The notes under the pieces are model-generated. The model did not search any database and was not told the DNA's origin. It saw only the letters and a program-made list of their open reading frames with translations. A DNA stretch of 29,936 bases from a virus. The DNA is taken from positions 1 through 29,936 of IMG/VR virus record IMGVR_UViG_3300025767_001998; one strand, written 5' to 3'. Positions 15,478 through 29,113 of this stretch are shown piece by piece (position 1 is the first letter of the stretch; each line of letters starts with the position of its first letter). Made by a program: the position numbers and the translations under genes.

Positions 15478-16212
15478 TTATAATAAATCGTTATCTATTT
15501 TATCATTTTTAATTAACACATACATCTTTTTAAATCTCCTCATTCCAACTCTAATATCTTTAGTAGTTAAATCGGTTATTTCTCGTATGTAAGATAAAAT
15601 TAAATTCTTGTTATATTTGTTACCACTACCTACTTGTTCAAAAATAGTTTCCCAATTATCTAAAATCTTAGTTAATGCATCACCAACCTTAAGTTCAGTT
15701 TCTGATAACTTACTATGTTGTAATTCTGCCTTAATACTTGCAGATATCTCCTCAATGAAATTATCTAATTGTATCTTCTGATCATCTATATTATATATTT
15801 GATCATCCATAGTTTCTACAGTTCTATAGACATCTTCAAATGAAACATCAGATTTCATCTTCTTATCATCTTTGATCAGTTGACCTAAAAGATAATGTTT
15901 ACAAATTGTACCAAAATAAGAATACGCTTTTTTATTCTTATCTGGTTTAAAGTTATGCATTTTAGTAATTAGGAATGATAACGTATCCGCATGTACATCT
16001 TCATATTCGTATTCTTTTCTGTATAACTTATACCTTCTTATGATGGACTCAACCATCTTATTTATCGGGTCTTTTAGAAATTCATTATAAATTTTATTTC
16101 TTTCACTATATGACTCACTTGTTAAAAACTTAACTACTGCTTCCTCTTGGTCTGGACCAAAATATAAATTTGTTGTTCTCTTTCGACCCCTTTTTTTGGG
16201 TTCTTCAGACAT
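15478..16212 (-). CDS. 55: Late transcription sigma factor (T4 gp55-like)
   Basis: Divergent sigma-70-family subunit that directs host RNA polymerase to late promoters, in T4 together with gp33 and the sliding clamp. It has 244 residues (T4 gp55 has 185). The diagnostic region is residues of about 50-115: VESIIRRYKLYRKEYEYEDV, then FLITKMHNFKPDKNKKAYSY and FGTICKHYLLGQLIKDDKKM, matching the sigma region-2 pattern of gp55 with a helix rich in aromatic and basic residues. The N-terminus is basic (PKKRGRKRTTN). The C-terminal part is helical and may contain the clamp-binding tail, though no clear hydrophobic box is seen. Its gene lies directly upstream of the baseplate operon, and the recurrent AT-rich elements here are candidate targets. 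Confidence 0.78.
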   Translation of the reverse strand: MSEEPKKRGRKRTTNLYFGPDQEEAVVKFLTSESYSERNKIYNEFLKDPINKMVESIIRRYKLYRKEYEYEDVHADTLSFLITKMHNFKPDKNKKAYSYFGTICKHYLLGQLIKDDKKMKSDVSFEDVYRTVETMDDQIYNIDDQKIQLDNFIEEISASIKAELQHSKLSETELKVGDALTKILDNWETIFEQVGSGNKYNKNLILSYIREITDLTTKDIRVGMRRFKKMYVLIKNDKIDNDLL

Positions 16213-16222
16213 TACAATTTAA

Positions 16223-16999
16223 TTATACTTCATATGTTATTTCTCTATCTTCAGTGAAAAAATATTCTTTCTTTGCTTTGTTTACCCAAAACTTACTTTC
16301 TAAAACATCAATTGTTGACTTATATTCTACGAATAAAGAACCTTCTCTATTGTTAGTATGTTTATAACCCAATTTAGGTATAACCATAATAGGGATAGAT
16401 AAATAAGACATTCTTAATAAGAATTCATAAGTAAATGTAAGTTTCATATGTGATTTTAAACCACCATTCTCTAAGAAAGTATCTCTTTTTACGATCATAC
16501 CATCAAAGTTAAAGTTTTGAACTCTTAGTAATGTATTATTATCTAATCTACCAATTTCTTCTGAGAAATCTTTAGCCCATACACTTTCATTAGTAAATGA
16601 AATAAATTTACCATTCTCATCAGTTTCATAAACAATAGGTAAGAATATTCCCACTTCTGGATATGCGTTAATATATTCTACACCATTTTTAATCCATATT
16701 GGGGATACCTCATCATCGTACTCAACAAAAGTGAAATAATCACCATTACTTTTTTCTACCCCATAATTAATTTGTGATTGGAAATCATATTTTCCTGTTT
16801 CGTTTTCAATAACTTTAGTAACGTCTTTAATGTCACCAAAATCGTAACTATTTAAATAGTTTTTTACGTCCTCATCATTAGATGTTACAAAAATAACCTC
16901 ATAAGGTTTAGTTTTTTGTGATTTAATACTTTCAATACAACCAACTAAATAATTCTCTTCTAGTTTGTGTACTGGTACTATTACTGTAATATTTGACAT
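16223..16999 (-). CDS. Family 2-type glycosyltransferase (GT-A fold)
   Basis: 258 residues, starting with the classic GT2 opening MSNITVIVPVHKLEENYLVG, a nucleotide-sugar-binding strand-helix. YDDE at residues 94-97 lies where the metal-binding DxD-type motif belongs (GDYFTFVEYDDE). A later hydrophobic/aromatic region around NFNFDGMIVKRDTFLENGG fits the acceptor side of the fold. No transmembrane segments, so it is cytoplasmic. It ends 10 nt before the sigma factor gene start and begins 23 nt after the small basic gene, in the same transcription unit as a second glycosyltransferase. Donor and acceptor cannot be read from the sequence. Confidence 0.85.
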   Translation of the reverse strand: MSNITVIVPVHKLEENYLVGCIESIKSQKTKPYEVIFVTSNDEDVKNYLNSYDFGDIKDVTKVIENETGKYDFQSQINYGVEKSNGDYFTFVEYDDEVSPIWIKNGVEYINAYPEVGIFLPIVYETDENGKFISFTNESVWAKDFSEEIGRLDNNTLLRVQNFNFDGMIVKRDTFLENGGLKSHMKLTFTYEFLLRMSYLSIPIMVIPKLGYKHTNNREGSLFVEYKSTIDVLESKFWVNKAKKEYFFTEDREITYEV

Positions 17000-17022
17000 A
17001 TTTATTTTTTTATTTTTAATTG

Positions 17023-17157
17023 TTATCTACCTTGTCCTTTATATTTTTTCTTATAAAGTTTACTAGTTTTTGTTTTACTAGTTTTTGTTTTAGCGTGCAC
17101 ACCTTTTCTCTTTTTTCTCGGATTCGGTGTGTAATAGTTATCTCCTATTCTAGCCAT
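17023..17157 (-). CDS. Small basic protein, 44 residues
   Basis: A short gene opening MARIGDNYYTPNPRKKRKGV and ending KKKYKGQGR. About 40 percent of residues are Lys or Arg. The ATG overlaps the stop of the upstream glycosyltransferase by 8 nt (ATGGCTAG), and the next gene starts 23 nt after the TAA, so it sits inside an operon. The middle is a duplicated KTKTS unit made by a 15-nt tandem repeat. Two points support a real gene: the tight start-stop overlap and a non-random, almost ribosomal-protein-like composition. It may bind nucleic acid or pack with DNA; no function is known to me. It is not a shadow frame of a neighbour, as no other gene covers this stretch. Confidence 0.72.
   Translation of the reverse strand: MARIGDNYYTPNPRKKRKGVHAKTKTSKTKTSKLYKKKYKGQGR
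17062..17091 (-). repeat. Perfect 15-nt tandem duplication inside the small basic gene
   Basis: ACTAGTTTTTGTTTT occurs twice head to tail on the plus strand (17062-17076 and 17077-17091). In frame it encodes a doubled Lys-Thr-Lys-Thr-Ser-type unit in the 44-residue protein. Confidence 0.9.
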
Positions 17158-18289
17158 TTGTTTCGGTATTTTCTGTTGTTACTTGTTCTTTTTCTTGAAG
17201 TTGGTTGTAAGTTGTTTCTAACTCAACAATTCTTCTTTTAAAGATACCATCATATACCTCAGATAAAACTTTATTAGATTCTTCTTCAGTATATTTATTT
17301 TCCCATTCTGTCATACCTTCCATAACGTTTTGTGGTAATGCGTCTTCTAAGTAAAGTCCTACCATAGTCGCAATGATATCAGGAATCGCATTCATATTAG
17401 GTGTCCATATACCATTATCATTAAGGTTAAGATTACCATTTTGATCAACAGTACCCATCCATTCTGGTACCATCCTAGGAATTTTACCAATAACAGGTGT
17501 GTTAGATTTCATACACTCTAATGGGAATGTACCGAAACTTGATAGTTCATCTACCCATACACCTAAGAAAGATTGTCCTAATTCTTTTGCGAAAGTTTCT
17601 CTAGGTAATCCCGCCATATCTCTGAATGTTACAAATCTATAGTGTGGGTATTTTTGGTAAAATACTTTTACTATTTTCAATAATTCTCTCTTATCTCTCG
17701 CAACCATTGCAACTGTAGGTACTTTAGGTTTATCACTATTCTTAAAATAAGATGGGATACCCACAGGTACTTCATCAGTTCTAATACCTCTAAATACTGA
17801 ATTTGCGTAATCAGAAAGATTCTTATTAGTAGTAATTACATCTCTAATTCCGAATTGTTCCCATCCCTCACCTATTTCTAACATCTCAAAGATATATTCG
17901 TATGATTGTAGGAAAACAATTCTTTTACAAGGGAAGTTCGCAGTTTGTTTAATAATACTTGCGAACGCTTCAGGAATAATAACAAAATCTGAAGGCCCAA
18001 CTTGTAGTTGTTGTGATTCTATAGAGACGTGTGGTATATTTGCGTATTCCTCACCTAACCACTCTGCGATACCCATACCTTCTTCATCTTCTCTGAGTTT
18101 GTAATCATTTTTGTCGTGAAGAATTTGAGCGTTGTATCCCAGTTCTCTAAGTTGTTTTACGTGTTCGTAAATTGTTGCAACACCTGCGGTTGGATTACCT
18201 TTGGTGTCAATAGTGAAAAAATAGATACCGAAATCTTTGTTGTTAATTTTTTCGATACCATTTTTAATTCTGTCTAATTGTTCACTCAT
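17150..18289 (-). CDS. GT-B glycosyltransferase
   Basis: 379 residues. The N-terminal Rossmann-like half begins at about residue 20 (FGIYFFTIDTKGNPTAGVAT). The C-terminal half has a GT4-type donor site: DELSSFGTFPLECMKSNTPV at about residues 248-267, where Glu and the FPLE-C-PV pattern correspond to the EFG-x-PLE-A-G-PV motif of retaining GT-B enzymes. The last 40 residues are charged and helical. The gene overlaps the small basic gene by 8 nt and starts 22 nt after the gene upstream. Cytoplasmic, no membrane anchor seen. Sugar specificity unknown. Confidence 0.78.
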   Translation of the reverse strand: MSEQLDRIKNGIEKINNKDFGIYFFTIDTKGNPTAGVATIYEHVKQLRELGYNAQILHDKNDYKLREDEEGMGIAEWLGEEYANIPHVSIESQQLQVGPSDFVIIPEAFASIIKQTANFPCKRIVFLQSYEYIFEMLEIGEGWEQFGIRDVITTNKNLSDYANSVFRGIRTDEVPVGIPSYFKNSDKPKVPTVAMVARDKRELLKIVKVFYQKYPHYRFVTFRDMAGLPRETFAKELGQSFLGVWVDELSSFGTFPLECMKSNTPVIGKIPRMVPEWMGTVDQNGNLNLNDNGIWTPNMNAIPDIIATMVGLYLEDALPQNVMEGMTEWENKYTEEESNKVLSEVYDGIFKRRIVELETTYNQLQEKEQVTTENTETNG

Positions 18290-18310
18290 AACATTTATTT
18301 GTTTTTATTA

Positions 18311-18643
18311 TTATAATTCTTTAAGAATACCTTTCATCAATAAAGTGTTAAAGGCAATCTTAAAAGGTATTGTTGTACTGTTGAGTGCAACTATACCCAT
18401 TTTATTATCTACTTCTTCGTTATACATCATAAGTGCACCGATCATTTCACGATACATTTCATATTTTGTAACATCAATATGTAATCCACCTGTGTCAGGT
18501 AGAGGTTCTTCTATCTCAACATCACCTTGTCCTTCATTAACAGTTAATGGTAATGGTTCTTGTTCGATTCGAACTATTTCTGACAATCTATCGATGTCAA
18601 GGTATAATTCTTTACCTCCGATCTCTAACAATAAGTTATCCAT
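18311..18643 (-). CDS. Unknown 110-residue acidic protein
   Basis: Not recognised. The N-terminal half is acidic with many Glu and Pro (EQEPLPLTVNEGQGDVEIEE), probably an extended linker. The C-terminal half is compact and hydrophobic (KYEMYREMIGALMMYNEEVD, then IPFKIAFNTLLMKGIL), suggesting a small helical domain. It lies between the HAD-like gene and a glycosyltransferase gene with gaps of about 20 to 45 nt, so it is probably co-transcribed with them. Confidence 0.68.
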   Translation of the reverse strand: MDNLLLEIGGKELYLDIDRLSEIVRIEQEPLPLTVNEGQGDVEIEEPLPDTGGLHIDVTKYEMYREMIGALMMYNEEVDNKMGIVALNSTTIPFKIAFNTLLMKGILKEL

Positions 18644-18688
18644 ATGATTTTTTTATTAAATTTATGTAAAATTCTAAATTAGTAAATA

Positions 18689-19306
18689 TTAAATGTCTTC
18701 AAACTCTATAGTTTGTGTTCCTAATATTTTTTCTAATATTTTTTTGTCATCTAAAATTTCTTTTAGATCTAAAATTGTATAATCTGCGTCACAATCCTTA
18801 TTATAGTGATTTATAACTTTAATTGATACCTTTTCTTTTGGTTTTGTTTCTAATGTTGTGGGGTTTGCGGTAATAAGAATATCCACATGATCCCATTTTT
18901 TATCATAATCTCTAACAAAAACAATATTATTTACCTTTGCGGAAAGTTTAGATAAAAAGAATAATGTTGCGGGTTTACTATTGTTTAGTTCTTTACTGAT
19001 CACAATAGGGGTATGTCCCATATCTTCTATTAGATTATGTAGTTGGTTTAGGTGTTCTACAGAATTAAGTTTTGTCTCACCTGCGTGTCCAAATATTTCT
19101 AATGATGAATCAATATAAAGAAATTTATTAAGTTCTTCAGTACCACCAGTAAATTTAAAATGTTCTAAAAGATTTAAGGTGTTAATATCTCTCTTAGGTA
19201 ATTCTTCACCCTCTTCTAATTCTACAGGATAATACTTATCATATACTGATTCGAACTTAGTTATAAAGTCTCTAACTACACCGTCAATTGTTATTCCAAT
19301 TCTCAT
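18689..19306 (-). CDS. HAD-superfamily-like protein with altered catalytic motif
   Basis: 205 residues. The opening MRIGITIDGVVRDF matches HAD motif I (DxDG-V-x-RD) at every key position except the first: Thr5 stands where the nucleophilic Asp normally is, while the acid/base Asp7 remains. Later candidate motifs are IVISKE (motif II Ser), SKPATLFFLSK (motif III Lys) and DHVDILITANP (acidic motif IV). Phage HAD proteins of this layout are usually related to 5'-nucleotidases or polynucleotide-kinase-type phosphatases. With the nucleophile replaced, ordinary phosphatase chemistry is unlikely, so a binding or structural role is possible. Clustered with unknown and PhoH genes on the minus strand. 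Confidence 0.6.
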   Translation of the reverse strand: MRIGITIDGVVRDFITKFESVYDKYYPVELEEGEELPKRDINTLNLLEHFKFTGGTEELNKFLYIDSSLEIFGHAGETKLNSVEHLNQLHNLIEDMGHTPIVISKELNNSKPATLFFLSKLSAKVNNIVFVRDYDKKWDHVDILITANPTTLETKPKEKVSIKVINHYNKDCDADYTILDLKEILDDKKILEKILGTQTIEFEDI

Positions 19307-19352
19307 ATTTTAATTTTTATTAATAGTAGTAATATATAGTAATTAGTAAACT

Positions 19353-20108
19353 TTATTTACTGCTTTCTAAATCATCGAAGGTTGATTCGATGACCTTGAT
19401 GATTGGGTTTCTAACTACATCATCAGGATCTCTCAATGTAACAGTACCAAATCCTTCAACACCTTCAAATTTTTCAATAATGACTTCTAAAGAACTGTCA
19501 GTTCTTTTCTTAATATCTTTTTGTTTAACATCACCTAAAATAACCATCTTTGAGTTGTCACCAATTCGAGTCATTAAGGTTCTCATATTACTTACGGATA
19601 TGTTTTGTGCCTCATCAACAATAATAATTGTGTTATCAATACTACGACCTCTAACAAAGGCTAATGGTTGGATATTAATAATACTCAACTCCCTTAATTT
19701 TCTAGTTAAACTCTCACCAATAATCTTTTCAAAATTATCTATAAAAGATATCATATAAGGATCTAATTTTTCTGATAAATCTCCAGGTAAAAAACCTAAT
19801 TCTTCTCCGGGTAACTGTATTACAGATTTAACCAAAAGTATTTTTTTATATTTTTCTCTTGTTTTGATTAATTTTAGGGCTTCTGCACATGCAATATATG
19901 TTTTTCCACTACCGGCCAATCCTGACGCAATAGTTATCTCATTTTCTTTTATCGATTGTACTAATTTTTTTTGGTTTTCTGTTTTACATTTAACATTAAC
20001 AAACATAGATGATAAAAATTTATCTTCTTCCATGTTTTTACTATATACGAAGGATTCGACTTCTCTAAGTTCTTCCTCTGTTAGTTTTTTATTTCTTCTT
20101 CTACTCAT
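19353..20108 (-). CDS. phoH: PhoH-like ATPase
   Basis: 251 residues of the PhoH family, a P-loop ATPase common in T4-like phages and thought to act in RNA or nucleic-acid metabolism. Walker A is GLAGSGKT (residues 63-70) and Walker B is IIIVDEAQNIS (161-171), with QPLAFVRGRSIDNT in front as usual in the family. SNMRTLMTRIGDNSKMVILG (sensor-type region) follows. Only the PhoH core is present; no KH or PIN domain. It stands between the HAD-like gene and the FkbM methyltransferase gene. A TATAAATA octamer lies just upstream. Confidence 0.92.
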   Translation of the reverse strand: MSRRRNKKLTEEELREVESFVYSKNMEEDKFLSSMFVNVKCKTENQKKLVQSIKENEITIASGLAGSGKTYIACAEALKLIKTREKYKKILLVKSVIQLPGEELGFLPGDLSEKLDPYMISFIDNFEKIIGESLTRKLRELSIINIQPLAFVRGRSIDNTIIIVDEAQNISVSNMRTLMTRIGDNSKMVILGDVKQKDIKKRTDSSLEVIIEKFEGVEGFGTVTLRDPDDVVRNPIIKVIESTFDDLESSK

Positions 20109-20125
20109 TCGTTAAATTTATTATA

Positions 20126-20133
20126 TATTTATA
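20126..20133 (-). promoter_or_regulatory. T4-late-like octamer before PhoH gene
   Basis: On the minus strand the sequence reads TATAAATA, the exact T4 late -10 octamer, 17 nt before the PhoH ATG. It overlaps the end of the methyltransferase gene by a few bases. Only suggestive in so AT-rich a genome. Confidence 0.3.
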
Positions 20134-20809
20134 TTATTTTTTTAAACAAATAATCTTTATGTCCTTTTATTATCGTACCACTTATATTTTTAATGTTATA
20201 TTTTTCTAAAATTTCAACAACTTCATGTCCAGTACAATGACCTTCATCCGCCCTATCATATCTTAATTCTAAATTAAGCCCAACTATTCTACCTTCTTCT
20301 AATGATTTAGTTGCACCTTTAATCATGTCTAATTCGGCACCCTCAATATCTGCCCAAATGAAAATATTTTTCACGTATGGGTATTTTTCTAATATTTTAT
20401 CTATGGTGGTTAATTGAATGGTTGATTTCTTATAGTGACCCTCTTCTATTAATTTTTCAGAACCATGTAACCAGAAATCACTCTTTCCACCTTCGTAACC
20501 CATAAACCCCTCAACCTCAGTTTCGGTTTCACCAACACCTAATTTATATAAGTCACCAACATAGTGACCTTTAACCATTTCATATCTTTCGTTGTGTGGT
20601 TCAAAACCAATGATAGTACATTCAGGTTTTAAATCCTTAACAGACCAAGCTTCGGTACCCACATACCCAACACCACAATCAATAAAACAATCAAAATCAT
20701 ATTGGTTTATAATATTTTGTATTTGTGAATGATGTGATCTACTATTAACAGATGCGTTGTTGATTTGTGTCCATTGATGCTTAAATGCAGCTCTCTCTCT
20801 ATTATTCAT
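20129..20809 (-). CDS. FkbM-family methyltransferase
   Basis: 226 residues. SAM-binding motif I is FIDCGVGYVGTEA (about 43-54), and the acidic post-I motif is GFEPHNERY (68-76), the signature of FkbM enzymes. TTIDKIL (134-140) and IWADIEGAELDMIKGA (151-166) are the other FkbM landmarks. Members methylate hydroxyl groups of sugars or small metabolites, often in polysaccharide loci. The start overlaps the stop of the second methyltransferase gene by 8 nt, so the two are made together. In this locus a sugar O-methylation role is the natural reading, though the target is not known. Confidence 0.85.
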   Translation of the reverse strand: MNNRERAAFKHQWTQINNASVNSRSHHSQIQNIINQYDFDCFIDCGVGYVGTEAWSVKDLKPECTIIGFEPHNERYEMVKGHYVGDLYKLGVGETETEVEGFMGYEGGKSDFWLHGSEKLIEEGHYKKSTIQLTTIDKILEKYPYVKNIFIWADIEGAELDMIKGATKSLEEGRIVGLNLELRYDRADEGHCTGHEVVEILEKYNIKNISGTIIKGHKDYLFKKII

Positions 20810-21374
20810 TTTTATCGATTATAATTAAATAGGAAAATTGATTCATTTGGACATCTCTATCTTTAGTTCTAATTTTCTCAAATGTTATTTCATGTGGAGC
20901 AACAAGACCTTCAAATTCATGTATATTTTTATAATTACCAGAACCAGTGTCGTCCCACCAATTACAATGACCTTCCGGAGAAGGTCTTGAGTCGTTAAAT
21001 GAATGTCTCCAAGGAACTGTAATTATAAGTCTTTTAACAGTTAATTCTAATAAATTATTTAACGCTTCTTTATAATTGGGTAAGTGTTCTAATACTTCAC
21101 AACACATGACAGTTTCACACTTTTTAACTGGGAACGACTCTAAATCAAATATATTTGCTAAACTATATTCTAATTTATTAAAATATTCTGACATATTTTT
21201 ATCAAACCACGGGGCTCTTTGATAGTCAGTTGAGTAGACTTTAAAACCATCCTTTATTAAGTGATAATCTTTTTTGCAATCACCGGCACCAACTACCAAT
21301 ACTTCTTTTTTCTCAGAAATTGATTTTATTTCTTTAATAATGCGTTCATGTCTAATATCTAATTTTGGTTCCAT
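20802..21374 (-). CDS. Class I SAM-dependent methyltransferase
   Basis: 190 residues. VLVVGAGDCKKD (about 25-36) is the SAM-binding loop, with VYSTD (46-50) holding the acidic ribose-binding residue. MCCEVLEHLPNYKEALNNLL (90-109) is the motif typical of Methyltransf_11/23-type enzymes, followed by LIITVPW. The C-terminal half contains Trp- and His-rich sequence (HCNWWDDTGSGNYKNIHEFE) that probably shapes the substrate pocket. The start shares a TAATG with the stop of the upstream glycosyltransferase gene, and the end overlaps the FkbM gene. Likely acts on a sugar or nucleotide sugar; unproven. Confidence 0.83.
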   Translation of the reverse strand: MEPKLDIRHERIIKEIKSISEKKEVLVVGAGDCKKDYHLIKDGFKVYSTDYQRAPWFDKNMSEYFNKLEYSLANIFDLESFPVKKCETVMCCEVLEHLPNYKEALNNLLELTVKRLIITVPWRHSFNDSRPSPEGHCNWWDDTGSGNYKNIHEFEGLVAPHEITFEKIRTKDRDVQMNQFSYLIIIDKNE

Positions 21375-22312
21375 TATATATTATTTTTTATCGCTTCGTC
21401 CCATCTATTAGCAAATTTTTCTGGGGTGAAATCCCTTATTATTGGTTGACAGTCTTCGACTATCTTATTTTGTAACACTTCATCATTTATTATAGTTTCA
21501 AGTTTTTCTTTCATATCTTCAGGATTATTCCGTTCATGATAGATAACGTTATCACCATAAACTTCTTTAAACACTGGTAAATCACTAAGTAATACTGGTA
21601 TACCACAATATAACGCTTCAATAGGTGTAATACCCCACCCTTCAAAAACTGAAGGTGAAACGATTAAAGTAGATTGTTTAATAGTTTTAATCAATTCTTC
21701 TCTAGGGGCACCGTCATGAATGTTTATATTTTGATTAAACTGTCTCATAGTGGATTTAATTTCTTTACCATAATTTCCTGAAATACCAGTACCAAAAAAA
21801 TGAACATCATATCCAATATCTCTAGTCGCAATAACAGTTTGATGGAATTTTTTATTATAGAAAAACCTACTAATTTGTGTTATTTTTTTCATCTTTTCTT
21901 GATTTGGAATAGAGTCTAATCCTTTGGTATCTATGTAAGAATACATTTGTATACTATCTATACCGTACTTTTCCTTAATACCATTTTGAACCCATTTACT
22001 AGCAGTTATAACTAAATCACATTGTTTTAATTCATTCACCCTTTGTTGGTTAATATTATCTCTGTGTACATTATCCCTATTACCTTGTTCTGACATACCC
22101 CATTCTCTCCAATTGTAAGGTATGTCCCAACACCAACAAACTAAAGGTTTATTATGTTTTTTCTTAGCCTCAAGTGATTGTGGTAATCTAGAAATACTTG
22201 AAGCGTATATTATATCACATGAGTCATCACATGTATTAAACATAAAATCATGTTCACTATATTCACAAAATAATTTATCCCTTTCACTAGGGTAAAACAT
22301 CGATATTTTCAT
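21374..22312 (-). CDS. GT4-type glycosyltransferase (GT-B)
   Basis: 312 residues. The donor-binding motif is clear: SPSVFEGWGITPIEALYCGI (219-238) followed by PVLLSDLPVFKEVYGDN, the standard E-x7-E region of retaining GT4 enzymes. KITQISRFFYNKKFH (143-157) marks the start of the C-terminal Rossmann domain. The N-terminal domain is shorter than in typical 370-residue enzymes, with WCWDIPYNWREWG as an aromatic patch. Its start lies inside the 3' end of the epimerase gene (26-nt overlap), so translation of the two is coupled. Confidence 0.88.
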   Translation of the reverse strand: MKISMFYPSERDKLFCEYSEHDFMFNTCDDSCDIIYASSISRLPQSLEAKKKHNKPLVCWCWDIPYNWREWGMSEQGNRDNVHRDNINQQRVNELKQCDLVITASKWVQNGIKEKYGIDSIQMYSYIDTKGLDSIPNQEKMKKITQISRFFYNKKFHQTVIATRDIGYDVHFFGTGISGNYGKEIKSTMRQFNQNINIHDGAPREELIKTIKQSTLIVSPSVFEGWGITPIEALYCGIPVLLSDLPVFKEVYGDNVIYHERNNPEDMKEKLETIINDEVLQNKIVEDCQPIIRDFTPEKFANRWDEAIKNNI

Positions 22313-23309
22313 TATTTTTAGTTTTCAAATACTCAATTAATTTATCAACACCTTTAGTAACATTATATTTAGGTTCCCACCCTAAACTCATGGCTTTAAT
22401 GTTATTAGAAACAAACATTTTTTGATCTCCGTCTCTTTCTATATTGTAACTTATTTCAACATTACTATTCGGTATTTTATCTTTGATGATATCAACTATT
22501 TCTAAAATAGAGACGGTGTTATTTGTTCCGCCACCCATGTTGAAAATATCACCCGGTTTTGATTTTTTAACGACTAATTCATAAAAATCAATAAGGTCAT
22601 CAATGAAGAGTATATCTCGAACCTGTTTACCATCCCCAAAAATGGTTATCGAACCATTCTCCAAAAATCTTTTAACAAACCATGCAACCCATCCTTGGTC
22701 TTCTGTACCATTTTGGTATGTCCCATAAATACAACTTTGCCTAATCACAACAGTATCTAAACCGTATATCCTAGAATAATCTCTAACGTACTGGTCCGCA
22801 GTCCCTTTACTACAACCATACGGTGAGTAAAAATCTAAAATTTCATCTTCTCCAATACCGTCAATATCTTCAGCAAATACATATCTGGTTTCTAGTTCAT
22901 TTAATACCCTATCATTTAAATCACCATAAACTTTATTAGTTGATGAAAATAGTAATTTACCATCTTTAGCGTATTTTCTCATACACTCTAAAACATTAAA
23001 TGTTCCAATTGCATTAGTTTCAAAATCCATAGTTGGGTTATCTAATGATGTAGTAACGGCTGTTTGTGCACCTAAGTGGAAAATCAAATCAAACTTATTT
23101 GATTTGAAAACCCTTTCGACATCATTAAGACTTCTTAAGTCACCTTTTTCAAATTTAACTATCGGATTATTTTCAACCAATTTAAGATTGTCTAACGAAC
23201 CTAATTTATTTAGATTGTCAAACAAAATTATATTGTCTGCTTTATTAATATAACGTAAAGCGGTATTAATTCCTATAAAACCTAATCCACCTGTAATTAA
23301 AATGTTCAT
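22287..23309 (-). CDS. NAD-dependent sugar epimerase/dehydratase, CDP-paratose 2-epimerase-like
   Basis: 340 residues, extended short-chain dehydrogenase. The NAD-binding motif is TGGLGFIG (6-13). The catalytic pair is Tyr164 and Lys168 in YSPYGCSKGTADQYV, with Ser/Thr122-124 in LLFSSTNKVYGD. VVIRQSCIYGTYQNGTEDQG and the following WVAWFVKRF resemble CDP-paratose (CDP-tyvelose) 2-epimerases more than UDP-glucose 4-epimerases. The product would be a nucleotide-activated hexose or deoxyhexose used by the neighbouring glycosyltransferases. No upstream CDP-sugar synthesis genes are visible here, so the substrate would come from the host or from elsewhere in the genome. SDR identity is firm; subfamily is moderate. 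Confidence 0.85.
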   Translation of the reverse strand: MNILITGGLGFIGINTALRYINKADNIILFDNLNKLGSLDNLKLVENNPIVKFEKGDLRSLNDVERVFKSNKFDLIFHLGAQTAVTTSLDNPTMDFETNAIGTFNVLECMRKYAKDGKLLFSSTNKVYGDLNDRVLNELETRYVFAEDIDGIGEDEILDFYSPYGCSKGTADQYVRDYSRIYGLDTVVIRQSCIYGTYQNGTEDQGWVAWFVKRFLENGSITIFGDGKQVRDILFIDDLIDFYELVVKKSKPGDIFNMGGGTNNTVSILEIVDIIKDKIPNSNVEISYNIERDGDQKMFVSNNIKAMSLGWEPKYNVTKGVDKLIEYLKTKNNENIDVLP

Positions 23310-23313
23310 TTTT

Positions 23314-24207
23314 TTATAATTTACAAAACTCTATTATTCTTTTACCCCATTGTTTAGGTAAAAATTCTTGAACTTTGTTGTAAGAATTTAACCTTATTCT
23401 ATTACGTTCCTCTTCATTTTCAAGGTAAAATTTAGCCTTTTCTATAAGTTCTTCTTTAGTTTCAAAAGTAACAATATTTTCATTAGAAGTAAATGTTTCT
23501 TCTAAACCTTTCCACGGTGTTGTCATTAAAAAACCACCAGATGCTAAAATTTTATAAATTCTAACAGATACACCTGTAGCGTCGGTTGGTGAAAAATTTA
23601 AATTGATTTTACTTTCATTAACTATTTTATTGTGTTCTAAACCGAAAATACCGGTATAATGTTTAAACCCAGAGAATTCGTTATTAAGCGTATTAACATA
23701 CATTTGACGATCACCATGTATCTTACTTGAATCAACGGAACCTATAAAAGTTATATCATCTTTATAATTAATATCGTCTAACATAAAATTCATTGCGTCA
23801 TCTGGGCATTGGTGAACAAATAAGGTATTGTTACAAAATTTTTTAGCGTATGGGGTAACACCCTCAACTCCTGAAATGAAGTAATTTACTCTCTTAGATT
23901 TTTCAACCAATTCATTATCAAAATTATGCATAGCATCCATATACCACATACAAGTTTTAGAAACTTTATTTATGTCGTCAACAACTCTATAATGCATTTG
24001 ATTACATTTACTAAAAATGACTAAATCAGGTTTTAATGAATGTGTTAAATTTATTAACTCATCGTCCCTTCTTTTTATATTCTTTAATGAAGATAGTCTA
24101 GTCCTATAATCATATTCATAGACTTCACTACCATTTTCTTTAAAACCTCTAGATTGGGATACATTGGTTGAATTTTTATTAAATACACCCACAAATAAAA
24201 TTTTCAT
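23314..24207 (-). CDS. GT-B glycosyltransferase, CgeB-like
   Basis: 297 residues. The C-terminal part has the pattern of CgeB-type (Glyco_trans_1_2) proteins: INLNFSPTDATGVSVRIYKI (201-220), then LASGGFLMTTPW. This lies where the donor sugar binds. The last 60 residues are a charged helix (YLENEEERNRIRLNSYNKVQ), also usual in this group. The N-terminus MKILFVGVFNKNSTNVSQSR starts a Rossmann-like strand-loop. It overlaps the upstream GT9-like gene by 4 nt and ends 4 nt before the epimerase gene start. Confidence 0.8.
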   Translation of the reverse strand: MKILFVGVFNKNSTNVSQSRGFKENGSEVYEYDYRTRLSSLKNIKRRDDELINLTHSLKPDLVIFSKCNQMHYRVVDDINKVSKTCMWYMDAMHNFDNELVEKSKRVNYFISGVEGVTPYAKKFCNNTLFVHQCPDDAMNFMLDDINYKDDITFIGSVDSSKIHGDRQMYVNTLNNEFSGFKHYTGIFGLEHNKIVNESKINLNFSPTDATGVSVRIYKILASGGFLMTTPWKGLEETFTSNENIVTFETKEELIEKAKFYLENEEERNRIRLNSYNKVQEFLPKQWGKRIIEFCKL

Positions 24208-25007
24208 CGTATATTTTTTAAAATAATTTCTTTTATATCATATGGATTAGGATCCCATCCACCATCCGCATAAAATATAACTTCAGTGTTGAAAGGGTTC
24301 CAGTCTTTTTCATACCTAATTCTATTATATTCTGTACTCCATACTAAATGTTTCATACCACATAATGAAGACAAATGCATTGGACCACTACTAGGTCCAA
24401 CAATAATTTTACTACTATTTAAAATACCTACTAATTCCTTCAATTCGATACCTCTTAAATTTTCGGTACCTTCAATATAAAAAGACTCCTCATTACCGAT
24501 ACATGCAATTTTTAAATTTTTAGGTAATAAATCATATAATTTTTCCCATTCAGATTTACCCCAATTTCTTTCTGACCCTGTTGATTTATTTCTACAATGA
24601 AATATAACATCGAAACCATTTTCAGTTTTATAATCATATTTATAAAACTCTTGTTCAGTAAAAAAAAGTTTTTTAGTATCTACTACACCATTATGAGTGT
24701 ATCTCATACCGATATCAAAGTTACCTGATAAAAATACAGTGTGGGATATATTTTTGATTACATCTTTAGGGTCTTTACAATCATAACATTTCCACGCATC
24801 AGTTTTATAACTTTCAGGATTAAATTCTACATATTCGTCACAAAAATCTTCATATATATATTCATTCCCAGGTCTACCGATAATTATTGTTTTATCAAAT
24901 AACTTAGACATTTTTCTAACGTAACCCTGCCAACAAAATAATTCCCAACCGAATTCACCAACCCAAGGACCAGCCAATAATATTTTATCATTCTTCGTTA
25001 TAGACAT
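24204..25007 (-). CDS. GT9-like glycosyltransferase (heptosyltransferase fold)
   Basis: 267 residues. Residues from 130 show the ADP-heptose-transferase-like C-terminal domain: FDVIFHCRNKSTGSERNWGK, with a W-x2-L-x2-LP stretch, then LVGILNSSKIIVGPSSGPMH (192-211), the usual donor-binding segment. The N-terminus PWVGEFGWELFCWQGYVRKM resembles the substrate-side start of the family. It overlaps the large fusion glycosyltransferase by 20 nt and the CgeB-like gene by 4 nt. Whether it transfers heptose cannot be told. Two Cys in KCYDC (about 73-77) are notable but unexplained. Confidence 0.75.
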   Translation of the reverse strand: MSITKNDKILLAGPWVGEFGWELFCWQGYVRKMSKLFDKTIIIGRPGNEYIYEDFCDEYVEFNPESYKTDAWKCYDCKDPKDVIKNISHTVFLSGNFDIGMRYTHNGVVDTKKLFFTEQEFYKYDYKTENGFDVIFHCRNKSTGSERNWGKSEWEKLYDLLPKNLKIACIGNEESFYIEGTENLRGIELKELVGILNSSKIIVGPSSGPMHLSSLCGMKHLVWSTEYNRIRYEKDWNPFNTEVIFYADGGWDPNPYDIKEIILKNIR

Positions 25008-26649
25008 TAATAAATAATTCTTTATATTTTTTAATTATTTGTTCGTTATCAAAAATAGACATATCTTTAGGGACTTCCTGATAACTCTTATCTATCATAT
25101 TTCCATTTTTATCGACAATATAAACCCATCCAGGCTTATTACATAGAAACCCTTCTATAGTAGTTCTACCTAAAAATATTCCCGCAGTTTCGTCACATTT
25201 ATTAACAAACTCTTCTATTTTATCTGTGGGAGGAAAGTATTTTACATAATCATATTTATTAGAAAATTCTTGTGCATAACCCATAGTATCCTTACCCACT
25301 AACCACAGTTCTTCTGTGTTATTAATTAAATCTTCAATAGACTCTCTTCTAAGATAATCCATCGTACCAACGAATAGGGTAACTTTTTTATTTGTACCTT
25401 TATCTAATTTTTTCGGTATAAACCTACTTTTATCAAATAAATTATAAATAATTTCTATCTTAGAATCTTCGATATTATAATTATTTTTTATATATTCTTT
25501 AATTGAAGGTCTTATTGCTATATATTTTTTAATTCTGTTGTCAATGATAGGGTTTTCTAAATCAATAACTTCAGATCTAACTATATTAATAAAATTATTA
25601 TTAGGGTATAATTGTAAAAGTCTATTCGTTATCGGTGTGTGGTTTGTTAAAATGACATCGAATTTCATGTCCTTAACCATATATAATGTATTTGGTTTAC
25701 TATTAATCACTCCGTTTGGGGTATTCAACACCCACTTACCATCACCCATTTTATATCCTGGGGGTTCTTGTATAGGATATACTTTTATTGAATGTTTTTC
25801 CGCCTCTCTTTTAAAATTATTACCTATCTGAGAGGTAATATATACATCACAACCGTTTTTAACTAAACCTTTCGCTAACTCCATAGTAGACAACTCTGAC
25901 CCCGTTAAACCTTGAAAATTTAAACAACCAATTAATACTTTTAATTTTCTATTCCTAAATTTATCATCAACTTTAACTGGTAAAGTTTCACCATACTTTT
26001 CTACAAAAAGTTGTCTGTTTCGTTCCCATTCATCATTTGTTTCACCAATAGACATGTGGTTAATTCGTATATCAGTGATAACACCAACAGACACACCTGA
26101 AACAAAGTTTTTATAACAAAAATCTACATCATAAAAATGAAAACCTTTAACTCTTTCATCAAAAGGGGTATAGTCACCATCAATAACAATTCTTTCTTTA
26201 TGAACGGCAAAGAATAAACCATCAACATTAACAACATCTTCAACCCCTTTACCTAAATCAGAACTATATTCGGATAACCAACTTTTACCATTATGTGTGT
26301 GTTTTACTCTCCCATACATCCATTTAGGTTTTTCCCACCATTTACCTGTGTTCGGTAAATATTTACTACCTGCAACACCTATAATGCCATATTTTTCTTC
26401 TTTATCAAAATGATTTTTAAGTTTTTTACCCCATTGTTTAGTTTCTATTAATATATCATCATGTACATACGTTATAATGTCAAATTTGGCCCGTTTTAGT
26501 ATTTCATTATAACAATTTGTTAATGACCTGTCACCATTGTTAATTATTTGTATAACCTCCACTTTACCTTTGGGTAAACCACTTGTTTTAATTAAATACT
26601 CAATATGTTTTGGGTTATCCTCTCTAGTAGAAAAACCAATCGTTACCAT
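24988..26649 (-). CDS. Two-domain glycosyltransferase fusion (GT2-like plus GT-B)
   Basis: 553 residues with two enzyme-like halves. Residues 1-230 form a GT-A domain of the Glyco_tranf_2_5 type: MVTIGFSTREDNPKHIEYLI at the start, ITYVHDDILIE with HDD at 63-65 as the metal site, and FHFYDVDFCYKNF near the end. Residues 240-553 form a GT-B domain: KLKVLIGCLNFQGLTGSELS with a Gly-rich loop, KVTLFVGTMDYLRRESIEDL starting the second Rossmann half, and GIFLGRTTIEGFLCNKPGWV as the donor-binding region. The two could add two sugars in succession. It is the last glycosyltransferase before dUTPase and starts a run of overlapping genes; a TATAAATA octamer lies 23 nt upstream. Confidence 0.85.
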   Translation of the reverse strand: MVTIGFSTREDNPKHIEYLIKTSGLPKGKVEVIQIINNGDRSLTNCYNEILKRAKFDIITYVHDDILIETKQWGKKLKNHFDKEEKYGIIGVAGSKYLPNTGKWWEKPKWMYGRVKHTHNGKSWLSEYSSDLGKGVEDVVNVDGLFFAVHKERIVIDGDYTPFDERVKGFHFYDVDFCYKNFVSGVSVGVITDIRINHMSIGETNDEWERNRQLFVEKYGETLPVKVDDKFRNRKLKVLIGCLNFQGLTGSELSTMELAKGLVKNGCDVYITSQIGNNFKREAEKHSIKVYPIQEPPGYKMGDGKWVLNTPNGVINSKPNTLYMVKDMKFDVILTNHTPITNRLLQLYPNNNFINIVRSEVIDLENPIIDNRIKKYIAIRPSIKEYIKNNYNIEDSKIEIIYNLFDKSRFIPKKLDKGTNKKVTLFVGTMDYLRRESIEDLINNTEELWLVGKDTMGYAQEFSNKYDYVKYFPPTDKIEEFVNKCDETAGIFLGRTTIEGFLCNKPGWVYIVDKNGNMIDKSYQEVPKDMSIFDNEQIIKKYKELFINVYNEE

Positions 26650-26672
26650 CTTTTTAAATTTTTAAATTAAAT

Positions 26673-26680
26673 TATTTATA
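26673..26680 (-). promoter_or_regulatory. T4-late-like octamer before the glycan operon
   Basis: The minus strand reads TATAAATA, 23 nt before the ATG at 26649, in the 47-nt gap after the dUTPase gene. This is the only gap in front of the six overlapping or near-adjacent genes from 26649 down to 20802, so a promoter here would drive the glycan operon. The role is inferred. Confidence 0.35.
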
Positions 26681-26696
26681 AAAATATATGAATTTT

Positions 26697-27263
26697 TCAT
26701 TCTTTTCCTGTCGACCCAAATCCCAACTCACCTCTTTCGGTTTCAGATAGATTATTTGTTTTAACTAATTCACTTATACTTTGTCCCACAACATTCATAA
26801 TCACACCTTGTGCGATTCTTTCGCCTGATTGTATTGAATAATCTTCATTACTTAGATTTACCACAATAACACCAACATCACCTCTATATCCTTCATCCAC
26901 AGTTCCTGGTGTATTTAAAACAGAGATACCATACTTTAACGCCATACCACTTCTAGGTCTAACTTGTAATTCTGTATTTGGTGATAATTCGAACTTAAGA
27001 CCCGTAGGTATTAATTTTCTTTCTAAAGGTTTTAGAGTAATTGGTTCAGAGATAAACGCTCTTAAATCAAATCCACTGTCCCCAACCTTTGCGTACTCAG
27101 GATCAGGATTATTAGAACTATTAGTGAATTTAGTTTTTATTTTGAAATTATCCCAGTCACCCTCATTAAAACCATTCATTTCGGTTTGGTTAAATGATTC
27201 TATTTGTTCCATTAAACTCTTTAGTTCATTTAATTCATTAAGTTCTCTTTCAAAACCTTCCAT
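26697..27263 (-). CDS. dut: dUTPase
   Basis: Hydrolyses dUTP to dUMP and pyrophosphate, keeping uracil out of phage DNA and supplying dUMP for dTMP synthesis. 188 residues of the trimeric all-beta family with all five motifs: KVGDSGFDLRA (59-69), RPRSGMALK (102-110), NTPGTVDEGYRGDVGVIVVN (117-136, catalytic Asp123), GERIAQGVI (147-155) and RGELGFGSTG (177-186). About 40 N-terminal residues before the core are an extra charged Asn/Glu-rich segment (ELNELNELKSLMEQIESFNQ) of predicted helix. The ATG directly abuts the stop of the HD-like gene, so they form one transcript. Confidence 0.95.
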   Translation of the reverse strand: MEGFERELNELNELKSLMEQIESFNQTEMNGFNEGDWDNFKIKTKFTNSSNNPDPEYAKVGDSGFDLRAFISEPITLKPLERKLIPTGLKFELSPNTELQVRPRSGMALKYGISVLNTPGTVDEGYRGDVGVIVVNLSNEDYSIQSGERIAQGVIMNVVGQSISELVKTNNLSETERGELGFGSTGKE

Positions 27264-27824
27264 TTATTTCTTTTTACATTCAATTATTGCGAGTTCATTC
27301 GCCAATCTTAATATGGTAGATAATGTACTCCCATACCATTTAGATTGTTTATCATCGTCAGTCTTATCATAATTAAGTATTGACTGATATTCTTCATCAG
27401 ATAATTCAACACCATATCTTAATGAATAGTATGCGGATCTTTCTCCCACTCTCATAGAAACTAAATCCTCATTAAAGTCATACATTTTACCTTGATTCTT
27501 TCTATGCCACTCAGATTCACAGAATTTATAGAGTTTTACTTTTCCTAACTGATGTAGGAAACAAACTCTTATAATAGATTTTTTATCAACCCTTTGTGAT
27601 TCAGGTAAAATATCATTTAGATTAATTCCGTATTTAGTGACAGTTAGAATATAATCTATTAACCCACCAGGAAATGCATTATACATACTTTCCATATTAG
27701 ATGCGGGTGCACTATATAAATCTTCACCTAAAAACTCTAATAAATTTTCAGATAGGATGTTATAGGTTTCATTAGTTTTATTAAACTTTTCTTTATTTTT
27801 TAATATTTTCTCTTTCAAATCCAT
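27264..27824 (-). CDS. HD-domain-like protein with lost metal ligands
   Basis: 186 residues with the layout of phage HD-type phosphohydrolases: AFPGGLIDYILTV (50-62), then CFLHQLGKVKLY (88-99), the motif normally reading HDLGK, then SEWHRKNQGKMYDFNEDLVS, and LRLANELAIIE near the C-terminus, normally LADxxA. Known family ligands are H, HD and D; here the first His is Tyr58, the Asp of HD is Gln92, and the last Asp is Asn176. NYDK at 151-154 also seems to replace a His-containing motif. The fold appears intact, but two-metal chemistry should be lost, so a regulatory or binding role is likely. It abuts the dUTPase gene. Confidence 0.68.
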   Translation of the reverse strand: MDLKEKILKNKEKFNKTNETYNILSENLLEFLGEDLYSAPASNMESMYNAFPGGLIDYILTVTKYGINLNDILPESQRVDKKSIIRVCFLHQLGKVKLYKFCESEWHRKNQGKMYDFNEDLVSMRVGERSAYYSLRYGVELSDEEYQSILNYDKTDDDKQSKWYGSTLSTILRLANELAIIECKKK

Positions 27825-27856
27825 GATTTTACAAGTTTATTATAATAATAAAGAAA

Positions 27857-29113
27857 TTATTTCACTAAGTCAACTTCCACTCCTTTTTTTTCTTCTACTA
27901 ATTTAACATATAAGTCTCTTCTTTTCTCACAAACAGATTTCATATCATACGTTCCATTCACTGTATTATATAAATTCTCACCTAATTTTGTAATTAGATC
28001 TGGATTAAGAATTAATTTTTTAAGATGTGAATACCATAACTTATGATTTTTAATCGTAGGTACTAAGAAACCATTACCTTCTTCATTTATATCACCACCT
28101 TTCAGATAGGCGTTTTCAATGTCTATTTGATAAGGTCCGAAATCTTGTGCAATTATCGCCTTCTTATGGAATCCCGCCTCAATAACCTTAAGTTGTGATT
28201 TAACCTTATTAAATGTACTTTCTTTAAGTGGTGCAAGTGATATATCGAATAAATTATAATTAGACGCATATGAAGTAATAGGTTTAGTCCATACTCTTCT
28301 ATATGGTTCATTATGTACATTCTCATATTCTTTATTTTCAAAAGACAATAAGAATTTTTTATAATCTTCACTCACTAAATTATAATCATCAGTAAATATT
28401 CTTTCATATTGATACCATACAGATTCTTTTGGTTTAATAGGTCTTTGTTTTTGTTCACCTGTTTTCTGATCAATCATAGTCATAGTACCTCTTAAATCAA
28501 AACCACATAAAACAAATTGTACTTTATCTAATAAACCATCTGATTTAAGTTTAGTCATTAAACCTCTTAGTATTTCCAAATCTTTCATATGTGAAGAACC
28601 ACCTAACCATCCGATTCTAATTCTATCACTTTTCTCAGGATTACTCTGATATTGTTTCTCGTCTGGATTAATTGCGTTTGGTAAGACAAAGACATTCTTA
28701 TTTAATTTAGAAATCTCATCCGCAAATACTGAAGTAGTGGTTGTAACATTTCTAGATATTTTAAGATTATTCGCAATCTTCTTATCTAAATTATTTTGTT
28801 TGATGATTTGCCACGCAGGATGATCAGGGCCAGGTGACCAATGATCATCAATATCCATAATTGTTGCAATACCCAATTCATCACATCTTTCCAATAGTTT
28901 AGGTAGATTATCATAATCTCCCAATGTCCTATGATAATGAATTAAATCGTATTGTTTAAGATAGTTATCATCATTTAATTGTGGTTCGTAATCAATATCC
29001 ACATGAAACTCTTTTGGGAAGTATTCCTCTAACTTAATATGTGGTATTGTAGATCTGAAATAACTCACACCAGTACGGTCGCTGGGTACTACTAAAATTT
29101 TTATCTTACTCAT
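27857..29113 (-). CDS. GT-B glycosyltransferase (GT4-like), first gene of the minus-strand locus
   Basis: 418 residues. The N-terminal Rossmann domain opens SKIKILVVPSDRTGVSYFRS; TIMDIDDHWSPGPDHPAWQ (84-102) is a block familiar from phage-encoded GT4-like proteins. RIRIGWLGGSSHMKDLEILR begins the second domain, and KVIEAGFHKKAIIAQDFGPY is the donor-binding region with the usual Glu. The middle contains a charged insertion (about 220-300). It is the most upstream gene of the minus-strand block and lies back to back with the early genes on the other strand. No convincing promoter was seen in the 122-nt divergent gap on its side. Confidence 0.82.
   Translation of the reverse strand: MSKIKILVVPSDRTGVSYFRSTIPHIKLEEYFPKEFHVDIDYEPQLNDDNYLKQYDLIHYHRTLGDYDNLPKLLERCDELGIATIMDIDDHWSPGPDHPAWQIIKQNNLDKKIANNLKISRNVTTTTSVFADEISKLNKNVFVLPNAINPDEKQYQSNPEKSDRIRIGWLGGSSHMKDLEILRGLMTKLKSDGLLDKVQFVLCGFDLRGTMTMIDQKTGEQKQRPIKPKESVWYQYERIFTDDYNLVSEDYKKFLLSFENKEYENVHNEPYRRVWTKPITSYASNYNLFDISLAPLKESTFNKVKSQLKVIEAGFHKKAIIAQDFGPYQIDIENAYLKGGDINEEGNGFLVPTIKNHKLWYSHLKKLILNPDLITKLGENLYNTVNGTYDMKSVCEKRRDLYVKLVEEKKGVEVDLVK

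Follow-up and report, generated by a model that had tools for sequence, protein, structure and literature searches.

The window analyzed here is the whole of IMG/VR record IMGVR_UViG_3300025767_001998, a linear stretch of 29,936 bases with 30% G+C from a T4-related phage. It is a genome fragment in which a glycan-assembly locus occupies positions 16223-29113 (Table 1). The plus strand carries genes for the large terminase, portal, prohead protease and major capsid protein, and these T4-type capsid genes were supported by profile matches. Several proteins without family matches, a sigma-55-like factor and then the glycan locus lie on the minus strand. An initial annotation of the window had listed seventeen genes in the locus, among them seven glycosyltransferases, an epimerase and two methyltransferases. 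The listed reading frames exist at the positions given, but our count was 15 open reading frames (ORFs) of at least 60 amino acids (aa) in a consistent non-overlapping set, plus one ORF of 44 aa. The tight spacing was confirmed, as the seven genes from the FkbM methyltransferase to GTfus are joined by six junctions of -26 to +4 nt each. Comparison with related loci uncovered an anatomy that the window alone could not reveal: constant edges enclosing a hypervariable, exchanged middle, referred to below as the cassette.

Table 1. Features of the window, listed by position
Feature	Coordinates	Strand	Evidence or occurrence
Major capsid protein with hypervariable insert (residues 121-330)	7262..9007	+	phrog_138 1e-66
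Sigma-55-like late sigma factor after GT2a	15478..16212	-	phrog_234 6.4e-5; PF04542 (sigma region 2) 7e-4, below its cut-off
GT2a, conserved GT2 glycosyltransferase	16223..16999	-	PF00535 8.1e-18
44-aa basic ORF between GTcore and GT2a	17023..17157	-	9/36 loci
GTcore, conserved GT-B glycosyltransferase related to Actinobacillus minor AmGGT	17150..18289	-	Profile and fold
110-aa protein	18311..18643	-	Recognized in most relatives, not all
Conserved 205-aa protein	18689..19306	-	30/34 mapped records
PhoH-like ATPase, right junction of cassette	19353..20108	-	PF02562 2.2e-62
Cassette FkbM-family methyltransferase, cassette right end	20129..20809	-	PF05050 3.1e-11
Cassette S-adenosylmethionine-dependent methyltransferase	20802..21374	-	PF08241 3e-4
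Cassette GT4 glycosyltransferase	21374..22312	-	PF00534 2.1e-22; E-x7-E
Cassette nucleoside diphosphate (NDP)-sugar epimerase (short-chain dehydrogenase/reductase, SDR), CDP-tyvelose/paratose 2-epimerase type	22287..23309	-	PDB chains 9rl0, 1orr
GT12, cassette GT-B type glycosyltransferase	23314..24207	-	PF13524 2.2e-21
GT9-like cassette protein, weak assignment	24204..25007	-	PF01075 E 0.076, under curated cut-off
GTfus, GT2-type half and GT-B half	24988..26649	-	PF13712, PF13439
dUTPase, interleaved with conserved glycosyltransferases	26697..27263	-	PF00692 1.6e-24; 17 relatives
Conserved 186-aa protein, no family	27264..27824	-	Present in 15 relatives
GTB418, conserved left-edge glycosyltransferase	27857..29113	-	PHROG

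Enzymes of the locus

Six of the seven proposed glycosyltransferases were supported by profile matches or by a predicted fold. The GT4 enzyme has its E-x7-E pair at residues 224-232, and GTfus matched PF13712 (8.4e-33) over residues 25-219 and PF13439 (4.3e-9) over residues 250-408. GTB418 matched phrog_7162, a glycosyltransferase group, at 5.9e-40. Distant relatives of GTB418 (~24-36% identity among the matches listed) occur in 135 phage records, including Phapecoctavirus, where the relative sits in a run of four annotated glycosyltransferases. The seventh candidate, the GT9-like protein, had no PHROG or NCBIfam match and in the PDB reached only E 0.33, to an entry with an unrelated name, so that this assignment is not established.

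Searches with GTcore returned nothing from Pfam up to E 1 or from PHROG up to E 0.01. A profile built from 26 GTcore sequences matched a single PDB sequence (up to E 10), the A. minor glucosyltransferase AmGGT (8xsg, 7.5e-12). The AlphaFold model of GTcore (predicted local distance difference test, pLDDT, 85.6) also had 8xsg as its best structural match, with Z 28.7 and 317 aligned residues at 3.4 A. Sequence homology and the predicted GT-B fold both point to kinship with the AmGGT/Agt enzymes, a group in which Agt members extend sugars on peptides and AmGGT itself needs free oligosaccharides. No tblastn relatives of GTcore or GTfus were found in the phage collection at 1e-5.

The epimerase call was borne out: the best solved chain for the SDR was the CDP-tyvelose 2-epimerase 9rl0 (1.8e-93), followed by 1orr (5.6e-84). 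Its relatives at 44-53% identity (best 80 of 566) are scattered over many phyla, and no host can therefore be inferred from it. Both methyltransferases also hold, the FkbM protein with an additional match to TIGR01444 (1e-8, slightly under cut-off) and the second enzyme barely over the PF08241 cut-off (21.8 bits against 21.2). The sigma-55 assignment was likewise supported by its PHROG match.

Constant edges and an exchanged cassette

A scan of IMG/VR with GTcore recovered 36 loci on 36 records, on contigs of 4.9 to 254 kb, among which GTcore best-segment identity is 51-94%. Further sequence was taken for 19 records, and 34 records were mapped, two short ones being excluded. GTcore was followed by GT2a and the sigma factor in 36/36 loci, any interruption being no more than a short ORF called on the opposite strand. 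Where the sequence extends, the gene order is GTB418, 186-aa protein, dUTPase, GTfus, cassette, PhoH, 205-aa protein, 110-aa protein, GTcore, GT2a and sigma factor. The exceptions are that PhoH was not seen in three near-identical records (G020-G022), that the 110-aa protein was unrecognized in some and that small ORFs are interspersed. GTB418 was present in all 15 records extending to it, and GTfus in 18. Only 0.4-0.5 of GTfus aligns in 8 of the 14 distinct relatives; its N-terminal GT2-type half (~25960-26649) belongs to the constant left edge and its C-terminal GT-B half to the variable part. Four glycosyltransferases are constant: GTB418, the GT2 half of GTfus, GTcore and GT2a. The ratio of nonsynonymous to synonymous substitution rates (dN/dS) was 0.01-0.09 for GTcore, GT2a and GTB418 (up to three pairs), and 0.05-0.08 for GTB418 alone (two pairs). 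The initial annotation had proposed a search of related phages for the same gene set; the edges were recovered in this way, while the middle turned out to be exchanged.

Complete cassettes were obtained from 18 relatives and range from 5 to 23 ORFs and from 3.4 to 19 kb. Genes were counted as shared when their proteins reached 50% identity with 70% of the shorter one covered. None of the six cassette genes of the window was shared with 17 of these relatives, and two (GT9-like and GT12) were shared with the remaining one, G013. These two genes exceeded 60 bits in that record only (1/34), GT12 being weakly matched (49 bits) in G020-G022. When near-identical records were counted once, 71 of the 105 pairs formed by 15 distinct cassettes had no gene in common even when the limit was lowered to 40% identity; on average, the shared fraction was 0.08. 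GTcore, GT2a and the sigma factor average 79-99% identity in the 30 closest pairs.

The clearest replacement was observed between G007 and G008. Their flanks are 96.0% identical in nucleotide sequence over 7,051 bases on the left and 96.1% over 13,433 bases on the right, whereas no blastn match of at least 100 bp was found between the 2,851 bases (four genes) and 2,758 bases that lie in between. The left break coincides with the stop codon of the first cassette gene, and the right break lies 23 bases before the PhoH start in G007. Among the products of the replaced genes are, in G007, a PglD-like acetyltransferase and an enzyme of the GT92/GT2 type and, in G008, a methyltransferase and a GT2-like protein slightly below cut-off.

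Cassette contents, complete and partial cassettes alike, were surveyed by a Pfam scan of 150 proteins, each representing one cluster, at E up to 0.01 and with overlap among the families. The first 25 of 129 families include GT2 (12), RmlD (9), GT11 (8), GT10 (8), the Gmd-type SDR (8), FkbM (6), hexapeptide acetyltransferases (6), the DegT aminotransferase type (3), TylF (3) and sulfotransferases (3). Gmd was found in 18 of 37 records, the best at 413.1 bits against a cut-off of 415, so that none lies above it. The one Gmd that was searched had as top PDB chain 5uzh (1.8e-99), of the GDP-mannose 4,6-dehydratase type, and its neighbor matched a GDP-L-fucose synthase (4bkp, 5e-89). By homology, then, relatives of the window are shown to encode a predicted pathway for GDP-L-fucose. 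In G004, G010 and G011 (loci L005 and L011 among them) the gene for a DegT-type protein is flanked by those of Gmd and of another SDR, and the one searched was closest in the PDB to ColD-type dehydrases (2gms, 2.6e-57). The combination of Gmd, a ColD-like protein and an SDR suggests that these phages probably also encode GDP-L-colitose synthesis.

Candidate fucosyltransferases accompany the pathway. GT11 was found in 9/37 and GT10 in 10/37 records, and Gmd was present in all 11 records with either. Among distinct complete cassettes, GT10 or GT11 occurred in 7/8 with Gmd and 0/7 without it (Fisher p 0.0014, uncorrected for ancestry); in G028, which is among the seven with both, two stop codons fall within the GT11 match. 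This co-occurrence of activated-sugar genes with matching transferases lends good support to the earlier proposal that the enzyme set builds an oligosaccharide, and assembly of an oligosaccharide by the locus enzymes is very likely.

Other observations concern single genes in and around the locus. PhoH of the window is 99% identical to that of G002 and only 62% to that of G004, although GTcore is 93% and 90% identical, and PhoH may sometimes travel with the cassette. The very basic 44-aa ORF, which escapes the usual length cut-off, was recognizable in nine relatives. At the limits used, Pfam, PHROG and PADLOC gave nothing for the 186-aa protein, and two weak PADLOC matches of baseplate-region proteins were set aside. 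Just outside the locus, a single-gene swap distinguishes G007 (103834-105671) from G008 (also L043 and L044); the proteins, of 642 and 597 aa, have the same leader, and the swapped gene adjoins that of a conserved 685-aa protein with a similar leader. Relatives also have, near the locus, fiber-like proteins in which Ser+Thr make up 17-26%, a composition that was not used as evidence on the acceptor. Those of L043, L044, L048 and L050 are Ser/Thr/Gly-rich, measure 1,714-2,046 aa as read and lie on the opposite strand. Some of the long fiber-like proteins run to the end of the fetched stretch, and internal repeats are present in G007 and G008.

The acceptor of the glycan

The explanation that we favor, while stopping somewhat short of calling it probable, is that the window holds one allele of a locus for glycan assembly that runs through a lineage of large aquatic phages related to T4, with a virion protein, capsid or fiber, as the most likely acceptor. 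The constant GTB418, GT2 half of GTfus, GTcore and GT2a would build a constant glycan base, to which the exchangeable cassette between GTfus and PhoH would add outer sugars and methyl, acetyl or sulfate groups. Stepwise synthesis in the cytosol, from nucleotide sugars and on an acceptor supplied by the phage, is proposed because nearly all of the enzymes lack predicted membrane parts. Replacement of the cassette through recombination in the constant edges would alter the outer structure in one step, in a serotype-like manner. If the acceptor belongs to the phage, retention of these base enzymes in relatives that have diverged would be explained, and an unchanging acceptor would call for just such a fixed base with variable ends. 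The kinship of GTcore with the Agt enzymes, which act on peptides where AmGGT itself does not, would be in keeping with this. The order of action, the cytosolic acceptor, its location on the virion and the selective reason are what we infer from the genes. It is possible, though we regard it with some doubt, that virions carry a glycan of constant root and exchangeable outer part and that near-identical phages switch coat type by swapping whole cassettes, in parallel to rapid change of the capsid.

The capsid protein is a candidate acceptor by inference only. Its insert (residues 121-330) shows 57-73% identity to the window per 30-residue block, against 82-100% elsewhere in the protein (30 sequences), and 17 of the 19 alignment columns that differ between G007 and G008 fall inside it. 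In seven pairs dN/dS was 0.20-0.43 for the insert and 0.03-0.10 for the core. This pattern fits an exposed surface under pressure, short of proof of exposure or glycosylation.

Several points weigh against a virion glycan, or against parts of the scheme. The rapid change of the capsid insert could have arisen for other reasons; the AlphaFold model of the capsid failed with a pLDDT of 41.9, values near 80 being reached only in parts of residues ~165-325, and no match in the structure comparison exceeded Z 4.4. The identity of GTB418 depends on the PHROG name, as Pfam gave no family above cut-off, NCBIfam gave no match and the PDB gave none up to E 1. The donor, or even the activity, of GTcore is uncertain since the first residue of the catalytic Glu pair of AmGGT aligns with Ser or Ala, the second Glu being invariant in the 26 sequences. 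The cassette of the window has neither Gmd nor GT10/GT11; the GDP-fucose pathway was found in relatives, and the window itself has the tyvelose-epimerase-type SDR. Several cassette proteins had no Pfam match, and three of the seven replaced G007/G008 genes scanned had no family above cut-off (8 of the pair's 10 cassette genes were scanned). Exchange is not limited to the glycan locus either, because eight further comparable segments, each at least 300 bp long, also distinguish G007 from G008 (high-scoring segment pairs of 80% identity and 400 bp). Nor is the gene run purely for glycans, as dUTPase and PhoH sit among the constant genes. A scan of upstream regions for the T4-type late promoter (TATAAATA) showed no enrichment, even before the capsid gene, and expression time could not be read from it. 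The initial annotation had drawn on the strand shared with sigma-55 and baseplate genes to prefer the virion or the surface; this argument is weak given PhoH and dUTPase in the same run, the uninformative promoter scan and the timing of gp55, which in T4 is itself made before the late genes. Finally, GDP-fucose, probable GDP-colitose, acetyl, methyl and sulfate groups are what bacterial surface polysaccharides typically contain.

This last point leads to the main rival, unlikely on balance, in which it is the infected host's own surface glycan that the locus alters, for instance on lipid-linked O-units before export by the host flippase, so that other phages or released progeny fail to bind. 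Fiber-like genes near the locus in relatives agree with such a role, and a glycosyltransferase island of pelagimyophages has been interpreted in this way by its authors in the part of their paper considered here (PMC7029224). However, export machinery was not seen. By a Kyte-Doolittle scan, 259 of 268 cassette proteins of at least 80 aa are free of hydrophobic segments, 8 have one and a single protein has three, the last being a partial ORF at a contig end on the opposite strand. No flippase-like, polymerase-like or polytopic membrane protein was thus seen among these proteins, in a scan that was unchecked on a known flippase but flagged four proteins of the wider region with four segments. 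The initiating transferase PF02397 was found in 0/37 records, against 9/14 control genomes. Serotype-conversion systems employ a membrane flippase and a polytopic transferase, and such a Gtr-type pair was not seen among the same 268 proteins of the locus. The four base enzymes, under strong constraint, would also fit a constant acceptor better than changing host glycans.

It is improbable that the cassettes are instead a loosely selected hot spot that gains and loses bacterial sugar genes with no common product, only the conserved glycosyltransferases being of importance. The eight further segments that differ between G007 and G008 and the stop codons in G028 are in line with this idea, as is G021, in which Gmd is split into two frames while being intact in the near-identical G020 and G022. 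On the other hand, cassette genes are mostly open and tightly packed, the Gmd of G020 shares 72-84% identity with counterparts from other lineages, and Gmd co-occurs with matching transferases. In G028 (L029:4942-7107) Gmd is interrupted in frame by ~375 residues with a LAGLIDADG match. This insert is probably an intein, and inteins sit in maintained genes.

Glycosylation of phage DNA as protection from host nucleases, with a cassette that varies as hosts evolve enzymes against modified DNA, was also considered. Phage DNA glycosylation is well known (glucose in T4, longer sugars in other phages), a dUTPase is among the constant genes, and hypervariability would suit an arms race with modification-dependent enzymes. 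As the initial annotation had stated, no dCMP hydroxymethylase or similar gene can be seen in the window, and no thymidylate-synthase-family gene was found in it, which says little since the record is a 29,936-base fragment. Such genes occur in 8/37 records. The six that were read all have LGLPFN, which we take to be the form of dUMP enzymes, and none has the dCMP-hydroxymethylase form; a dUMP hydroxymethylase would still be compatible with this result, and the records are fragments. Of the 60 PDB rows listed for one of the proteins, 59 are thymidylate synthases and one is a designed protein. That no thymidylate-synthase gene was found in the longest relative, the 253,879-base (254-kb) record G008, was rejected as evidence against DNA modification, because this assembly apparently lacks ~27.6 kb present in its close relative G007, including the part that carries the gene there. 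Tet/JBP genes were found in 0/37 records by a search that had no positive control and proves nothing. In the portion of the BASEL paper considered, Vequintavirinae and their relatives, Phapecoctavirus being treated among them, are reported to be exceptionally restriction-sensitive; these Escherichia coli phages belong to the wider group that holds GTB418 relatives, and the sensitivity is reported despite a glycosylation gene set in one branch. DNA is to us the least probable of these explanations. The earlier preference for the virion or the surface over DNA is supported, short of proof, in that no dCMP-hydroxymethylase form was found among the six genes read and no export machinery was seen in the cassettes.

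Comparison with known systems

Bacterial O-antigen and capsule loci have constant edges and an exchangeable middle of sugar genes. The present locus resembles them in this anatomy, with sugar-synthesis and transferase genes in the middle, and differs from the Wzx/Wzy type in that no flippase- or polymerase-like protein or initiating transferase was seen. Among viruses of eukaryotes, a parallel is found in the chloroviruses. According to the sections of the sources considered, PBCV-1 encodes a GDP-fucose pathway and glycosyltransferases and carries a branched glycan on its major capsid protein (PMC4691112), and chloroviruses share a conserved five-sugar core, with some transferases in most strains and others in few (PMC7826918). 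A constant core of enzymes with strain-specific additions was also found here, at the gene level. Unlike the present phages, PBCV-1 infects eukaryotes and its product is chemically known; no single exchangeable cassette is described in those sections.

Two T4-like or cyanophage clusters come near in gene content, as far as the relevant parts of their descriptions go. The host recognition cluster of pelagimyophages is a hypervariable island of a T4-like aquatic phage, with several glycosyltransferases and tail fibers, and differs in its position between VrlC and gp14, in the seemingly gradual divergence, rather than full replacement, of the pair compared, and in the O-chain modification proposed for it (PMC7029224). 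Cyanophage S-SCSM1 (PMC9602691; MK867354.2) clusters Gmd, GDP-fucose synthase, fucosyltransferases, several glycosyltransferases and methyltransferases; its cluster is not shown there to be exchangeable between constant glycosyltransferases, and its Gmd is only ~52% identical. Gmd relatives (E up to 1e-60) were found in 83 of 50,697 phage records, mostly of cyanophages. To our knowledge, no exchangeable many-gene cassette is involved in mycobacteriophage glycosylation. Mycobacteriophage capsid and tail tube do carry glycans (Freeman et al. 2023, as cited in the part of PMC12619734 considered), and a gut-phage study deals, in the part considered, with a single glycosyltransferase and is not close (PMC8008677).

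Isolates nearest by capsid include Flavobacterium immuto, Microcystis Mel-JY01 and Rhodothermus RM378. No annotated glycosyltransferase was found in the 41.5 kb examined of each of the first two, Mel-JY01 having a large FkbM-named protein within that stretch. The clade that carries the locus is probably that of the moraphages (Perez-Hernandez et al. 2025, PMC12619734) or near them. In the parts of that paper considered, moraphages are large T4-related phages with genomes >200 kb, a Bacteroidota host and an aquatic source, mostly freshwater metagenomes, and they share the dUTPase, PhoH, sigma factor, major capsid protein, portal and protease. Four of their core-genome orthogroups are called putative glycosyltransferases, with DNA, host serotype or virion named as targets, and variable islands are noted and left for future study. 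These four groups may correspond to the four constant glycosyltransferases found here, and the content and exchange of a glycan island are not described in those parts. Among the papers listed in the literature searched, none was recognized as describing such a cassette exchange between constant glycosyltransferases in a phage, though such a description may exist. Phage glycan clusters, variable glycosyltransferase islands and the four moraphage core glycosyltransferases had thus been published, and what seems new is the lineage-wide exchange of cassettes between constant glycosyltransferases.

The moraphage remark on four core glycosyltransferases and unexplained islands becomes, with these data, a testable model. 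If the virion is the acceptor, coat-type switching, which is known on bacterial surfaces and paralleled in the giant viruses of algae, would be shown for phages as well, and the question would arise of what in water or on hosts recognizes phage sugars. The cassettes would then also provide a natural collection of fucosyl-, sulfo- and acetyltransferases and possibly of colitosyltransferases.

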